From IMG/VR virus record IMGVR_UViG_3300042379_000132, positions 1 through 32,366 of that record: a stretch of 32,366 bases of DNA; one strand, written 5' to 3'. This document shows, piece by piece, positions 5,504-12,740 of this stretch. A program made the position numbers and the translations under genes. Every line of letters starts with the position of its first letter. Positions within the stretch are counted from its first letter, which is position 1. Under the pieces are notes generated by a model that was given only the letters and a program-made list of their open reading frames with translations, ran no database searches and had not been told where the DNA came from. This stretch comes from a virus.

Positions 5504-5533
5504 CAAATATAATCATTAATTATTAATTTGCAA
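5504..5533 (-). promoter_or_regulatory. Bacteroidota-type promoter for the recombination and early operon
   Basis: Reading the minus strand, TTG (5533-5531), a 19-base spacer and TATATTTG (5511-5504) match the Bacteroidota vegetative consensus TTG-N19-21-TAnnTTTG. The leader ATTTGTAACATAA and the downstream ACACAATG are nearly identical to those of the promoter at 13529-13558. The upstream element lies just beyond the nuclease stop codon, so this promoter can raise expression of everything from 5479 leftward. Confidence 0.78.
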
Positions 5534-5858
5534 CTATTTCTTTAAATTTTTCTAAATTTTTTATTAAATAATATTTGAAACCTTGGTTTTCAACAAGCGT
5601 TTGGAACTCTTTTTGTTTGTCTGATTGCCTTCCAACGTCTGTTTTTACTTCGATAAAATACACGTTACCAAAATGTATCATAATTAAATCAGATACACCC
5701 GAAAACAATCCTGTTGCAATTTTTCTCATTTGTTCCTTTGCATCTTTTGAATCATTAGGTACTGAAAAAATTAAATTTCGTGGATCATGTTTCTTTAAAC
5801 AATAATTATTTCTATACCACATTACTATTTCCTGTTGAATTTTGTCTTCACTTTTCAT
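5523..5858 (-). CDS. VRR-NUC-type nuclease / Holliday-junction-resolvase-like protein
   Basis: A 111-residue PD-(D/E)XK protein of the stand-alone phage VRR-NUC type: Q8 and E10 at the N-terminus, SVPND near residue 33, ATGLFSGVSDLIM with D57, FIEVK with E70 and K72, then the GRQSDKQ segment. Such phage proteins are predicted or shown to cut branched DNA. Lying directly after the helicase, it could resolve replication or recombination junctions. Its ATG overlaps the helicase TGA by four bases. Family assignment is firm; the exact substrate is inference. Confidence 0.85.
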   Translation of the reverse strand: MKSEDKIQQEIVMWYRNNYCLKKHDPRNLIFSVPNDSKDAKEQMRKIATGLFSGVSDLIMIHFGNVYFIEVKTDVGRQSDKQKEFQTLVENQGFKYYLIKNLEKFKEIVAN

Positions 5859-7270
5859 TTGTACTTTAAATTAAATTGTCTATTTGCCCATCCTTTTTTA
5901 TAGCCCATGTATTTCTCATAAGCAAAATAATCTTCTTTGGTTTTCAATTGGTGGAATATCCATGAAACTTTGTAACCTTTTGCTTTTTGTATCATTTCAA
6001 GTTCTTTAAAAGTTGCTCCTTGTATTTTAGATTTTAAAGCGTTTGAAGATAGTTTTTGTAATTCTACAATTACGTCTTCCTCTTTTTCCTTTTCGGACTT
6101 TTCAAACACGTGACCACATTCGGGACAATCCATAATTCTTGCAGGCATAAGGTAGCAACATTCGGGACATTCTTTTATTGGTGCAGCACCTTCTTTTTTT
6201 TCTTTTTTCTTTAAATTCCATTTTCTTGGTGCTTCCCAATAGTGATGTCTTTGAATGTTATTCCCAAAATCTAATATTGTAAATTCATTTTTTATTGGTG
6301 TAACCCTCGAGCCACGGCCTACCATTTGAAGGAATAAAGGCAAAGACTTTGTAGCCCTGTATAAAATTACAACTTCAATAGTTGGGCAATCAAAACCCGT
6401 TGTCAAAATTCCGTAGTTTGACAAAATTGCACCAGGTGTATTTTCAAACCATTCTATAACTTCATCTCTATTATTCATGTAACAATCCACATGCTTTGCG
6501 TTCAAGCCTTTGGTTACAAATGAATTTACAAGCTCAATGGATGAATCTCTACTTGGTGCAAATATTATTGCTTTTTTACCGTTGCAAATTTTTGTATAGT
6601 TATCGTATACACCGTGGTAAAGTTGTATCTCTGAATATTTATCTGCCATGCTTTTTTCATCGTAATCTCCAGCTTTTGTTTTTACACCTTTTAAATCGAC
6701 TTTAACACCATAAGAAACTGGAGTTGATAAATTACCACTGTCAATTAAATCGGGGGTGTCTATAACTTGTATAATATCATCGTAAAACTTTTCTAAACTT
6801 AATTGTTTCCCCTCTCGGTGTGGTGTTGCAGTTGCACCTATTACATACGTTTTTTTATTTATGTAATCAAATAATCCATCAAATATAGATTTGTGAGCTT
6901 CGTCAATTATGATTAAATCTAAACTATCAATCCATTCTTTTAATATTTCAACCCTACGCATTACCGTTTGAATCATTCCAACAAATAGATTTTCGTTTAA
7001 ATCTACTTTTGAATTTTGCTTTATCAATTGTGGCTTTAATCCTAACTTTAATAATACGCTATCTGACTGAGAAAACAATTCCTTTCTATCTGTTAAAATA
7101 AGTATTTTTTTGTTTTTTGTAAAAGCGTTTTTACACATGTAGGAAAACATAACAGTTTTTCCAGAACCTGTTGGGGCGCACAAAACTATTTTTTTGTTTC
7201 CTTTCTTAAATGAATTTTGCAATCCATCTACATATTGTTTCTGATATTCTCTAAGTTCTAAAATGGACAT
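5855..7270 (-). CDS. SF2 DEAH-box DNA helicase with C-terminal zinc ribbon
   Basis: This 471-residue protein has ordered SF2 motifs: motif I APTGSGKT (32-39), motif II DEAH (123-126), motif III TATP (147-150), and motif VI QMVGRGSR at about 315-322. It thus resembles ResIII/RadD or UvsW-like helicases. A C-terminal CPEC ... CPECGH pair at about 370-390 should bind zinc, as in RadD-type proteins. It probably remodels forked or recombination DNA. It overlaps the primase-helicase gene by 13 bases and the nuclease gene by 4, so the three act as a replication unit. Confidence 0.88.
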   Translation of the reverse strand: MSILELREYQKQYVDGLQNSFKKGNKKIVLCAPTGSGKTVMFSYMCKNAFTKNKKILILTDRKELFSQSDSVLLKLGLKPQLIKQNSKVDLNENLFVGMIQTVMRRVEILKEWIDSLDLIIIDEAHKSIFDGLFDYINKKTYVIGATATPHREGKQLSLEKFYDDIIQVIDTPDLIDSGNLSTPVSYGVKVDLKGVKTKAGDYDEKSMADKYSEIQLYHGVYDNYTKICNGKKAIIFAPSRDSSIELVNSFVTKGLNAKHVDCYMNNRDEVIEWFENTPGAILSNYGILTTGFDCPTIEVVILYRATKSLPLFLQMVGRGSRVTPIKNEFTILDFGNNIQRHHYWEAPRKWNLKKKEKKEGAAPIKECPECCYLMPARIMDCPECGHVFEKSEKEKEEDVIVELQKLSSNALKSKIQGATFKELEMIQKAKGYKVSWIFHQLKTKEDYFAYEKYMGYKKGWANRQFNLKYK

Positions 7271-9657
7271 TCTTCTTCTTTTTTAACTTCGTTATTACTT
7301 GTAATTTCAAACCATCTTTGACCATTTGAGTTGCCTTCCTTGTATGTCTTACTATAATAAGTGCAATACTTTTGAATCCAAATAGTAAAGCGTTTTGTTT
7401 TTAACCAAGTTCTAAAGTCTTTATTTTCTTGTAAAAAGTTTTCAAAACAAACGATTTTCACGTGTCGATGATCTTCTTGTATATTACCATCCCCAACCCA
7501 TTCAAGAAATTCTGAAGACGTTTCATTTATTAGTTTTCTATGCTCTAAATTTTTAAAGTCAAATGGTACTAATCCTTTTTCAAGGTAAAATTTTTGACAG
7601 TTTATCATGAAATGGTCAAACCTTGCCCACTCGTTTTCGTCCCAATCGTCGAAAAGCATGTGACCAAACTCATCTAATGGAGTATAATTTGAATTAAAAA
7701 AACTACTCATTTCAACTTCAAATTTTCTGCGTTCAAAAGAACCACCAACCCCTCCAATAGTGTAGTTTGTTGTAATTACTATTTTTGGAGACTTAGTAAC
7801 AGGAAGTTTAATTGCATCCTGGCCTTTATATTCTAAGGTTATACCCTCTGTAATTAATGAGAATAAAGATTCAAATTGAAAGTTCTTTTTAACGTCATCA
7901 AATACAAGTAACTGCGTATCAACAGGCACCGATTGATAAGGAAATGATTTAGTAAATTCAAAGGTTTTACCATCTATTGCAGAAACCTTTTTCATTTTAC
8001 CCAAAGCATTCCAAAATAAAGACTTACCCGAACCACCGTTTGGATTGTCTGAAATTGTTTCATCGTTAAATATTATTGCTTTATTATTTGCACTTGTTTT
8101 GTAGGAGTGCATCAAATAGCCAATAACAGATTTTAAACTTTCGTATTTACTTGTGTTTTCAGATGCAGCCAACCAAAGGAACCTTCTAAACTCCGACTTG
8201 TGATGGTCTGCATCTATAAAGTCACGGTCAATAACTTGTTTTTTCCAAACAAAACCCTTTAAATCTTCATAGTTCATTTTTTGGAAACCATCTTTAAAAA
8301 CTTTAATTACACAGTTACGATAGTATAAAATTGCAAAGTCTGAGCCGTCTTCCTCTATGTTGAATTTTGCTGTTTCAAGCATTGATAAATACTGAGGTGT
8401 AAATGACTTTGTTGAACCAGCAACTAAATCAAAAGGCTCCAAACTATCACTACTTAATAACTCGTTTAGTACATGGTCCTTAATTTGAAATTCTGTTACC
8501 TCGTCTACAAAATTACCTTCCTTAGTTATGAAAGTAAAAGTCTTTGATTTATCAATCGGAAAATGCTTAAAGAAGTTTTTGTTTTCTAAATAGAATTTAA
8601 ACTTGTGATGTGAAACAACTAACTTCCCTTCCTCGTTGTGGCTCCAAAATTTGTTAACGTCTATTTTACTTTTTTGTGCAATTATTTCAGCTTCTAATTT
8701 TTCAGTAGTAAGGTCAGGAAATGATTTTTTAATATAGTCGTTTGTTTTACCAACCAAAATCATATTTGAAATGGTCTTCAATTTAGACTTATCTTCAAAT
8801 TGTTTAGTCCCAAAGTTAGCTGTATGCTTATAAGCTGAATTTATTAATGCTATTATTTCTTTACTATCAAAATCCTTTTGCTCGTTTGCAAGGATGTATT
8901 TTTCAGCAATAAACCTTTCAACTCCAAAATCATTAAAAGCTAAAGCCAATTTATGGAAGGAATTGTTTCTATTTACACCGTTGTAAGACTTCTTAAACCA
9001 CACCATTAACCTGTTAGCTATTTGGTCTTGGTCGGTCAAAGGTATGTTAGTAATAACACCTAAACTGCTGTTTATTTCTACTAATTCAGTTCTTTCAAAG
9101 TCAACGTATAAATCAGAGTCTAAATTTATATAAATCTCAGGGTCGTATGATTCAAAACATAGCCGTGAAATGTCTTGACCAGATGTATCAATTGTATTAC
9201 TTCCGTAGCTTTCGTTAACCCATTGAAAATGCTTTACAATTGATTTATAATACTTGTTGTACTCGTCATTCGATTCAATGGAAGGAATCTTTATTAAAGC
9301 CTTTAAACCATCTCCCGATGGACTTATCCAAGTAGAATAAACGTAACTATTAATTTTAAGTTTTTCTTTTAATTCTAAAACTAAATCATAGCTTTTAAGT
9401 TTGTCAAAATCCAATATACATAAACCACTTGCCTTTTTTAAATTATCCTTTGACCTTGTGGTGAAGGTTCCTGCAAATGTAACAGCTGATAATTGTAGTT
9501 TAATTTTAGATTTCTTTTTTGAATCTAATTCTGACCTTACTAATTCAATTGTTTTTTTACTATCTCCATTTCTAATACGGTCTAAGTAAAACAACACGTT
9601 TTTTGGTCTTCCTATCGGTGTGTTCTGATAGGCATCTTTGTAAAAATCAACATTCAT
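7258..9657 (-). CDS. Primase-helicase (VirE/BT4734-like N-terminus, SF3-like ATPase C-terminus)
   Basis: This 799-residue protein has an N-terminal domain resembling the BT4734/VirE primase-polymerase-associated family, with LCILDFDKL (79-87) and YSTWISPSGDGLKALIKI (107-124). The C-terminal ATPase has Walker A GGSGKS (541-546), Walker B LLVFDD (583-588), a motif-C-like IVITTN (626-631) and RR at 643-644 as a possible arginine finger. It probably initiates replication by priming and unwinding. It is the first gene after a promoter and a structured leader. The adjacent non-coding repeats make this a plausible origin-proximal initiator. Confidence 0.85.
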   Translation of the reverse strand: MNVDFYKDAYQNTPIGRPKNVLFYLDRIRNGDSKKTIELVRSELDSKKKSKIKLQLSAVTFAGTFTTRSKDNLKKASGLCILDFDKLKSYDLVLELKEKLKINSYVYSTWISPSGDGLKALIKIPSIESNDEYNKYYKSIVKHFQWVNESYGSNTIDTSGQDISRLCFESYDPEIYINLDSDLYVDFERTELVEINSSLGVITNIPLTDQDQIANRLMVWFKKSYNGVNRNNSFHKLALAFNDFGVERFIAEKYILANEQKDFDSKEIIALINSAYKHTANFGTKQFEDKSKLKTISNMILVGKTNDYIKKSFPDLTTEKLEAEIIAQKSKIDVNKFWSHNEEGKLVVSHHKFKFYLENKNFFKHFPIDKSKTFTFITKEGNFVDEVTEFQIKDHVLNELLSSDSLEPFDLVAGSTKSFTPQYLSMLETAKFNIEEDGSDFAILYYRNCVIKVFKDGFQKMNYEDLKGFVWKKQVIDRDFIDADHHKSEFRRFLWLAASENTSKYESLKSVIGYLMHSYKTSANNKAIIFNDETISDNPNGGSGKSLFWNALGKMKKVSAIDGKTFEFTKSFPYQSVPVDTQLLVFDDVKKNFQFESLFSLITEGITLEYKGQDAIKLPVTKSPKIVITTNYTIGGVGGSFERRKFEVEMSSFFNSNYTPLDEFGHMLFDDWDENEWARFDHFMINCQKFYLEKGLVPFDFKNLEHRKLINETSSEFLEWVGDGNIQEDHRHVKIVCFENFLQENKDFRTWLKTKRFTIWIQKYCTYYSKTYKEGNSNGQRWFEITSNNEVKKEEECPF

Positions 9658-9671
9658 AATTTCTATAAAAT

Positions 9672-9754
9672 AAAAAACCTCGAGTATCGGTGGTGGAAGT
9701 CACTTCAACTCGAGGAATTTATAAAAAATTTCTTACTGTAGCTTCCACTCTACA
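9672..9754 (-). promoter_or_regulatory. Structured 5' leader with two hairpins and terminator-like U run before the primase gene
   Basis: On the minus-strand RNA, hairpin 1 has stem UGUAG/CUACA (9754-9750 with 9741-9737) and loop AGUGGAAG. Hairpin 2 has an 8-bp perfect stem CCUCGAGU/ACUCGAGG (9715-9708 with 9685-9678), a 22-base loop and then six U (9677-9672), the form of an intrinsic terminator. Loop 1 GUGGAAG (9748-9742) is exactly complementary over 7 bases to CUUCCAC in loop 2 (9699-9693). In loop 2, CUUC can instead pair with the nearby GAAG. The primase ATG follows 14 bases after the U run. It could be an attenuator, a kissing-loop leader or a short terminated ncRNA. Confidence 0.6.
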
Positions 9755-9758
9755 AATG

Positions 9759-9790
9759 CAAATATAGTAATTAAATTTAATTAAATACAA
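9759..9790 (-). promoter_or_regulatory. Bacteroidota-type promoter for the replication genes
   Basis: On the minus strand, TTG (9790-9788), a 21-base spacer and TATATTTG (9766-9759) fit the TTG/TAnnTTTG consensus. A start about 5-8 bases after the -7 box would place the RNA 5' end at or just before hairpin 1 of the leader. A second TATATTTG overlaps the upstream element (9795-9788) but has no TTG at the right distance. Confidence 0.7.
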
Positions 9791-9846
9791 ATATATTGTA
9801 ATTTATATTAAATCTAAATAAGGTGTATAATTATCGATGTGTACTT

Positions 9847-9870: not shown

Positions 9871-10028
9871 GTAAAAGTCTATTTATCAATCTATTATACT
9901 CAATAGTACGAATCGAACACATTTTTTAGCTATTTTTTTTAAAAAAGGGGAAATAAAAAATAAATATTTTGTATAAATAAATAATATAAAATAGGGTAAA
10001 TATATTATACAATAGATATTTTTTTGAA

Positions 10029-10097
10029 AAAGCGTACTATTTTAAATTAACTCTTTGATAATTATAAAATTATATAGTACTCTTTTAAGTACGCTTT
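10029..10097. repeat. 10-bp inverted repeat with 49-base spacer
   Basis: AAAGCGTACT (10029-10038) and its exact complement AGTACGCTTT (10088-10097). Further AGTAC cores occur at 9903 and 10077. The right arm ends five bases before the A run of the terminator at 10102. It may be a protein binding site; the long AT-rich spacer argues against a simple hairpin. Confidence 0.5.
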
Positions 10098-10134: not shown

Positions 10135-10410
10135 TTAGTCATTGTAACATTCCCCTATTTTTTGACTGAATCGATTGTACTCACTTCGATAACTCCATTT
10201 CTTTTGCCAATTAGAACAGTCGTTTACTGTTATTATATCTGCAAAATATATTTCTTTTGCTTGAGTAGAGCCTTTAACTGGTATTAAAACAGTGCTACGT
10301 GGCGCGCTAACTATCCTATCACAATTACAATCTTTAATAGGTTCTTGTTTTATTTCTTCCTTTGCGCATCCGACCATTAGCAAAGATGCTGCTATAATTA
10401 TCTTTTTCAT
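10135..10410 (-). CDS. Small lipoprotein, possible lysis accessory (91 aa)
   Basis: The N-terminus MKKIIIAASLLMVGCAKEE has a basic start, a hydrophobic core and a lipobox-like LMVGC, so C15 would be lipidated after cleavage. The mature part has a CNC pair near residue 28 and two more cysteines near the end (NDCSNW, GECYND), suggesting disulphides outside the cytoplasm. Phages of Gram-negative hosts often carry an outer-membrane lipoprotein (o-spanin) near lysins. A lysin gene lies two genes upstream, but no coiled coil or inner-membrane partner is seen, so spanin remains a guess. Last gene of its operon. Confidence 0.68.
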   Translation of the reverse strand: MKKIIIAASLLMVGCAKEEIKQEPIKDCNCDRIVSAPRSTVLIPVKGSTQAKEIYFADIITVNDCSNWQKKWSYRSEYNRFSQKIGECYND

Positions 10411-11581: not shown

Positions 11582-11888
11582 AATAGCAGTTTATTAAAAT
11601 GTTTTGAAATGGTGCGTCTTGGTCGTAATCCGTAACCATGTACTCACCCGAACCGCCACACGTTGTACATTGGTTAATTTCTTTGAAGTTGTCGAACTGC
11701 TCTAACTCCATCGTTGTACAGATGCGGTCTCCTATTTCATCATACACTAATCCTTCTTGTATGTAAAGGCGCTCTCTAAGGTCTTCAAATGATGCGTATA
11801 CACTATCACTATCAAGACTTACAAATTCCACGTCTGAAGGCATAATTAACGTGTCTACCTTGAATATTTTTCTAATTAACGTCCTCAT
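11559..11888 (-). CDS. Hypothetical protein with DnaJ-like CxxCxGxG motif (109 aa)
   Basis: The first 75 residues are acidic and unrecognised. The C-terminal part has CTTCGGSGEYM and, 26 residues later, CYC, which resembles half of a DnaJ-type zinc finger, so zinc binding is likely. Such single motifs are frequent in small phage proteins with no known role. It overlaps the membrane-protein gene by 17 bases and the HTH gene by 23. Confidence 0.62.
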   Translation of the reverse strand: MRTLIRKIFKVDTLIMPSDVEFVSLDSDSVYASFEDLRERLYIQEGLVYDEIGDRICTTMELEQFDNFKEINQCTTCGGSGEYMVTDYDQDAPFQNILINCYCEKPFEL

Positions 11889-12617: not shown

Positions 12618-12740
12618 TAAATAACAACCTAATAAACCAAATCCAATCCATATTGCTGTGGATGCGTTCCAATAGTGATTTACAAATCCTACTGAAATAA
12701 TACAAACCAATACGTATAATAATTTTCTAGCATTTCTCAT
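12576..12740 (-). CDS. Small membrane protein, copy 2, with altered C-terminus (54 aa)
   Basis: It is homologous to the 50-residue copy at 11872-12024 through GFGLLGCYLI. After that its last residues (LRSYILHEQPKL) are read out of frame from the inserted virion-gene fragment, so the native tail (GRSYEDVN in copy 1) is lost. I chose the ATG at 12740 (MRNARKLLYVLVCIISVGF) because it matches copy 1; an upstream in-frame start would read far into the 57-residue gene. Two membrane spans are kept, so the protein may still work. Confidence 0.62.
   Translation of the reverse strand: MRNARKLLYVLVCIISVGFVNHYWNASTAIWIGFGLLGCYLILRSYILHEQPKL

Follow-up and report, generated by a model that had tools for sequence, protein, structure and literature searches.

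The primase operon in a 32,366-nucleotide stretch of viral DNA (the window, which is the whole stretch analysed) begins with a leader of two hairpins whose loops are exactly complementary, and comparison of this leader with its relatives suggests a new leader-RNA family, functioning like a putative transcription-control leader. Sixty-two non-redundant elements carry about 38 different kissing sequences, complementary in every case. The intramolecular structure, in which pairing between loops ties a 5'-terminal hairpin (P1) across an A/U linker to a second hairpin (P2, with P3 as its apical stem), is almost certainly real, judging from alignments. The observation on which a sequence-only reading of the window had rested is confirmed and proves much larger than could be seen from one sequence; the interpretation that accompanied it is partly supported. 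To our knowledge, little is known of gene timing in Bacteroidetes phages. Transcripts of their replication and homing-endonuclease genes are marked by a common and compact RNA device with no Rfam entry, and its loops, co-changing yet exactly complementary, follow an unusually clean rule, which invites the question of what drives their diversity.

The whole element, its promoter and the primase gene lie on the minus strand of the window, where the RNA is read from 9754 to 9672 as P1, the A/U linker, P2 with apical P3, and six U. The Bacteroidetes sigma-A type promoter (9759-9791, minus strand) has TTTG at 9791-9788, a 21-nt spacer and TATATTTG at 9766-9759, a format of -33 TTTG, 21 nt and -7 box. 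Because in F. psychrophilum the TAnnTTTG box spans -12 to -5, counted from the start (PMC9723704), the predicted +1 is 9754, the first base of P1, in keeping with the earlier proposal that a consensus promoter should start the RNA at or just before hairpin 1. A sigma-70 promoter scan of the window was uninformative for this phylum. P1 (9737-9754, minus strand) pairs UGUAG (9754-9750) with CUACA (9741-9737), and its loop consists of A9749 and the kissing strand K, GUGGAAG (9742-9748, minus strand). An A/U-rich linker of 21 nt (9716-9736, minus strand; median 19 across elements) leads to the P2/P3 hairpin (9678-9715, minus strand), which is drawn from the sequence, RNAfold and alignment covariation. 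Its lower stem, P2, joins CCUCGAGU (9715-9708) to ACUCGAGG (9685-9678); above a 4x4 internal loop (UGAA/CGAU), P3 joins GUG (9703-9701) to CAC (9692-9690) and carries a loop composed of A9700 and the second kissing strand K', CUUCCAC (9693-9699, minus strand). K and K' are exact complements, as had been pointed out before, with a computed loop-loop duplex energy of -9.6 kcal/mol, and both are assigned from their pairing and covariation in the two alignments described below. The terminator-like U6 tract (9672-9677, minus strand) directly follows P2, and 14 nt separate it from the primase AUG (9657-9655), agreeing with the 8-bp stem, six U and 14-nt gap first read from the letters. RNAfold, which cannot represent kissing pairs, predicts P1, P2 and P3 in the window leader (z -2.55). 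The descriptor scan and the covariance model together place exactly one such element in the window.

The first gene of the operon encodes a BT4734-like_N/VirE-type primase of 799 amino acids (7258-9657, minus strand; domain match), and is followed by genes for a helicase (5855-7270) and a VRR-NUC nuclease (5523-5858). Elsewhere in the window, a hairpin resembling an intrinsic terminator (AAACCGAC, a 7-nt loop and GTCGGTTT, then a T-run; 10128-10106, minus strand) lies near the end of the ORF at 10135-10410, and GTAC-containing repeats (AGTACACA and GTACTT) are found at about 9833-9846 and 10028-10094. In related loci, 53 such GTAC repeats fall within the 20-140 nt ahead of the promoters, as against 17.6 (sd 3.9) expected, and they are probably, from this distribution, binding sites of a regulator.

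Eighty loci with related primases, inspected by eye, have the same layout with differing loop sequences: GUAGUGC/GCACUAC at L010, GUGGUGG/CCACCAC at L027, GAUCUGAC/GUCAGAUC at L043, GGUCUGAC/GUCAGACC at L045 and GCUCUGAC/GUCAGAGC at L055. L073 (AUGGAAG/CUUCCAU) and L079 (AUGCAAG/CUUGCAU) differ by a changed loop with a matching partner. Loci matched by a pattern in IMG/VR yielded 52 elements at a score of at least 48 and further kissing sequences, among them AATGGTACT, GTGCAT, CTGCAAC, GTGGACG and TCGGTCAG. The set of 62 combines the descriptor scan, the whole-IMG/VR pattern scan and the covariance model, and has TAnnTTTG at every member by construction. Its median element, about 78 nt overall, has 5 nt between promoter and P1, a P1 of 5 bp, a first loop of 8 nt, a linker of 19 nt, a kiss of 7 bp (range 6-10 bp), a P2 of 11 bp and 16 nt between P2 and the AUG. 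Elements take up the 5' UTR from about +1 to a point 8-28 nt ahead of the AUG, both in replication operons and in front of free-standing HNH-endonuclease genes. The conserved apical feature is the GUG/CAC P3 together with the 4x4 internal loop, which in many elements reads nGAn on both strands and could form tandem G-A pairs. A variant kiss, ACCGCCAAG/CUUGGCGG, with little or no P1, is present at L029:7677-7762 and the equivalent place in L028 and L030-L035, at a second promoter about 4-6 kb downstream.

All four helices covary. The sequence-only reading had set the absence of covariation in homologues beforehand as grounds for its own refutation; covariation was found. In an alignment of 16 sequences, 96.6% of cells pair, two-sided changes affect 15 of 22 pairs (three of four in P1, four of seven in the kiss, five of seven in P2 and three of four in P3), and there are 72 two-sided cells versus 20.4 after shuffling; sliding the partner by one column lowers pairing to below 48%. 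In a second alignment, of six close relatives, all 27 pairs are paired in every sequence, and two-sided changes are confined to the kissing helix (4/8 pairs), P1 and P3 being invariant and P2 changing by G-U only. Kissing cells are 100% paired in both alignments. Comparison of about 26 close and independent pairs gives 0.053 two-sided changes per pair in K and 0.017-0.027 in the stems, with one-sided changes of about 1/187 in K and about 25/279 in P2. L018 and L020, which are 95% identical outside K, have three of eight kissing pairs changed on both sides; this difference may have arisen by template switching between the inverted repeats or through selection favouring new loops.

Any single locus of this kind could arise by chance, but the notion that the elements are chance complementarity or AT-rich hairpin noise is barely credible in view of that covariation and of the scans, and the homologues rule it out. 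A first descriptor scan returned 84 matches versus 2 in shuffles; a stricter descriptor, with a promoter just upstream and a score of at least 50, returned 58 real matches versus 0 in Markov shuffles, and a stricter scan demanding a promoter and a K of at least 7 returned 122 versus 0. The IMG/VR pattern, TATATTTG N6-16 GTGGAAG N36-60 CTTCCAC, was found in 42 contigs, some of which are near relatives of the window, versus 1 for a control with the non-complementary CACCTTC, composed of the same letters. When P1 and P2 were picked by stem strength only in 101 non-redundant leaders, many of them ordinary leaders or chance promoter matches without the element, loop complementarity of at least 6 nt occurred in 20.8%, versus 1.7% after swapping loops between leaders. 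A covariance model of 16 sequences that includes P1, P2 and P3 and leaves out the kiss recovered the known elements and almost nothing else, and the kiss was present in 21 of 21 non-seed matches checked, against a swapped rate of 0.355 that is inflated because related elements have K in common.

The first genes downstream of the elements belong to more than 20 unrelated families, with replication genes and HNH endonucleases predominating: 13 of 61 first genes are HNH (NUMOD4), 12 are primases, and the rest are replication initiators, helicases, one methyltransferase and unknowns. No structural genes were recognised among the genes served, the identifiable ones being concerned with replication, DNA metabolism or HNH. 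At those related-primase loci where another gene comes first, the operon head has the element instead, mostly 12-26 nt before a helicase gene, an HNH endonuclease gene or a small ORF. The element goes with promoters, not with one gene, and heads many operons besides those of primases, unlike its placing in the sequence-only reading.

Genomes hold up to five copies. A 74-kb contig (G009, the source of L113) has five elements, no two of which share a K; four lie on the opposite strand to the neighbouring large ORFs, and two of these four head HNH genes (Pfam). Its minus-strand genes at about 25.2, 35.3, 37.2 and 44.5 kb, set among plus-strand large ORFs, each have their own promoter and kissing leader, two being HNH/NUMOD4; by arrangement they are apparently mobile promoter-leader-endonuclease cassettes. 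This distribution bears on the idea of a DNA-level feature (a split operator, a cruciform or a replication-origin hairpin), to which K and K' would contribute an inverted repeat close to replication genes. It is very improbable: elements also precede HNH genes far from replication, copies in one genome differ in K, orientation with the promoter and placement at +1 are constant, K sits in hairpin loops, and P1, P2 and P3 covary. Orientation and loop placement largely rule out the operator, cruciform and origin readings.

The element also occurs in cultured phages whose hosts are available. Of two Flavobacterium phages, mumin9-1 (NC_048837.1; host Flavobacterium sp. LMO9) has two elements, at 11679 before the gp34 endonuclease and at 12714 before gp37-helicase-primase, and elemoF_6-3D has one, which heads the gp17-gp16-gp15 replication operon. 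The descriptor scan gave no convincing element in Cellulophaga phi46:1, Polaribacter Leef_1, Maribacter Panino or lotta8-1, nor was a convincing one found near related primases in genome contigs L130-L137, and blastn of the window leader against cultured phages gave chance matches only. The GTGGAAG-type pattern, outside which other K fall, had no match in 400 genomes from the family to which a Flavobacterium host genome belongs; the covariance model had one weak match in a Flavobacterium genome (G002, E 0.006).

The most likely reading of function, put forward tentatively from sequence comparison, is a cis-acting leader that controls read-through at the P2-U hairpin. P1 would fold once the RNA emerges from polymerase, and P3, emerging next, would kiss P1 while the 3' arm of P2 was still to be transcribed. 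Polymerase would then meet a pre-organised terminator-like hairpin and U-tract just upstream of the gene, and the kiss could set the frequency of termination or pausing in either direction, promoting or preventing it. The outcome would be limited or timed expression of replication genes and endonucleases. A sharp prediction is that function lost by breaking one loop would be restored by a matching change in the other.

Several features are counted in favour of such transcription control. The window has U6 directly behind P2, as in an intrinsic terminator, and across the 62 elements a median of 6 U fall within 8 nt after P2, the frequency of U being 0.69-0.84 at positions 1-6 and below 0.4 by position 11. 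The tract is aligned to the end of P2, not to the AUG, and keeps its place behind the stem with the AUG at a distance of 19-40 nt, so that the terminator-like U run noticed at the outset holds as a feature of the family. This stem-aligned tract behind the long P2 stem is accompanied by the location of elements at the heads of operons and of HNH genes with their own promoters, and by the conventional intrinsic-terminator-like hairpin (10128-10106) in the same phage. Against it, a clade comprising L027, L036, L038, L051, L098, L116 and L127 has GGCAUUAACUUUUU or something close to it, and its U-tract is displaced by at least 3 nt, which would make a poor intrinsic terminator. Further, no conserved, mutually exclusive antiterminator pairing was noticed as the homologues were looked through, which would leave a two-state attenuator without its second state. 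The switch proposed from the window alone had opposed a kissing-loop form to a local one: covariation bears out the former, and the latter, a GAAG/CUUC pairing, is lost in the close relatives L107, L119 and L123, which carry GACG there in the 16-sequence alignment.

The position of the 5' end also argues against a terminator, which has no need of it: in 47 of the 62 elements P1 has its first nucleotide between -1 and +3, and in the P1-less variants L040 and L066, K starts exactly at +1. So strict a position suits 5'-end protection rather than transcription control, and a leader serving as 5'-end protector and translation aid is a possible, somewhat less likely, explanation. The 5' triphosphate end would be hidden in a helix that runs on through K, P3 and P2, so that decay dependent on the 5' end would be slowed, and an open U/A-rich stretch before the AUG would load ribosomes, the U-tract being a landing spacer, not a terminator. 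The AUG lies 8-28 nt after P2 in 60 of 61 elements and some U-tracts do not directly abut the stem, both consistent with this explanation, as is a related leader type with GGGG exactly at +1 (10 of 10 loci checked). The U-tract nevertheless tracks the stem, not the AUG, and a strict Watson-Crick kiss is not obviously needed for protection alone.

That related type is a second leader design upstream of primase genes (L014, L015, L016, L025, L059, L060, L065, L067, L075 and L076), in which GGGG at the predicted +1 is complementary to CCCC in a hairpin loop (e.g. ACUCGUU/AACGAGU) and a long U-run lies inside the CCCC-bearing loop. From its sequence, the design resembles a pair of alternatives, a terminator and an antiterminator pairing, of which only one could form at a time.

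The behaviour of the loops has suggested that a short terminated RNA of about 85 nt might act in trans, kissing nascent leaders that have the same loop and so exerting copy-specific feedback or superinfection immunity, like P4 CI RNA or ColE1 RNAI. Paired substitutions in K are about twice as frequent per pair as in the stems and almost never one-sided, L018 and L020 differ as described, and cross-pairing is rarer within genomes (1/68) than between them (10.6%), with a permutation P of 0.016 that is confounded by one-K fetching and locus homology (P = 0.43 in an unbiased subset). Cis pairing by itself accounts for the complementarity, however, and action in trans is unlikely. The same low standing attaches to the suggestion that the kissing loops may be specificity tags by which each promoter's short terminated RNA acts on its own leader in trans, and it is likewise doubtful that such tags would diversify to keep cross-talk from arising between co-resident leaders or between co-infecting phages. 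If tags they were, homing endonucleases would bring their own tagged promoter-leader cassette.

In accordance with the initial impression that the leader belongs to no known RNA family, no family of Rfam 15 reached its gathering score on the elements of the window and of seven other loci, and a permissive Rfam search gave noise only. Rfam 15 includes several Bacteroidetes leader motifs, none of which matches the element. An Rfam match to DUF805b RNA at L037:2293-2325 (38.8 bits) does not overlap the leaders. No description of such a leader was found in the literature that was covered, namely open-licence papers, and an unlisted description is possible.

Among known systems, trp/his-type leaders, the T-box and riboswitch terminators place a leader hairpin and U-tract shortly before the first gene. 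The element resembles these intrinsic-terminator attenuators in having a hairpin and U-tract ahead of the first gene, but neither a leader peptide nor a conserved ligand pocket or antiterminator pairing was found in it, and its terminator-like hairpin is linked through a loop with the hairpin at the 5' end. ColE1 RNAI/RNAII and phage P4 CI RNA work in trans through short loop-loop pairings whose sequences change pair-wise; the element has such pairings as well, but with both loops in one transcript. In T4, a leader hairpin hides the ribosome site of homing-endonuclease genes in early transcripts. The element, too, puts an RNA hairpin before a free-standing phage endonuclease gene, but its fold runs from the gene's own +1 and ends short of the AUG, and replication operons have it as well.

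The closest known system in place and size, compared by description, appears to be put of phage HK022. The putL and putR sites are early-transcript leaders of about 70 nt with two stem-loops, putL lying directly after its promoter, PL, and put acts on the elongation complex, binding the beta' zinc-binding domain and antiterminating in cis with an effect that persists over kilobases (PMC9378689). An element of two stem-loops and median 78 nt at the head of phage operons could by analogy be an RNA that binds the elongation complex so that downstream pauses and terminators are ignored. Such put-like antitermination is improbable, since the loops vary freely and lack the sequence conservation expected of a binding surface, and several elements apparently serve a lone short HNH gene, where there is no long operon for read-through to act on. 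Nor is put described with kissing loops or a terminator-like U-tract (PMC9378689), whereas in the phages considered here even a single short gene can have its own copy of a leader built on both.
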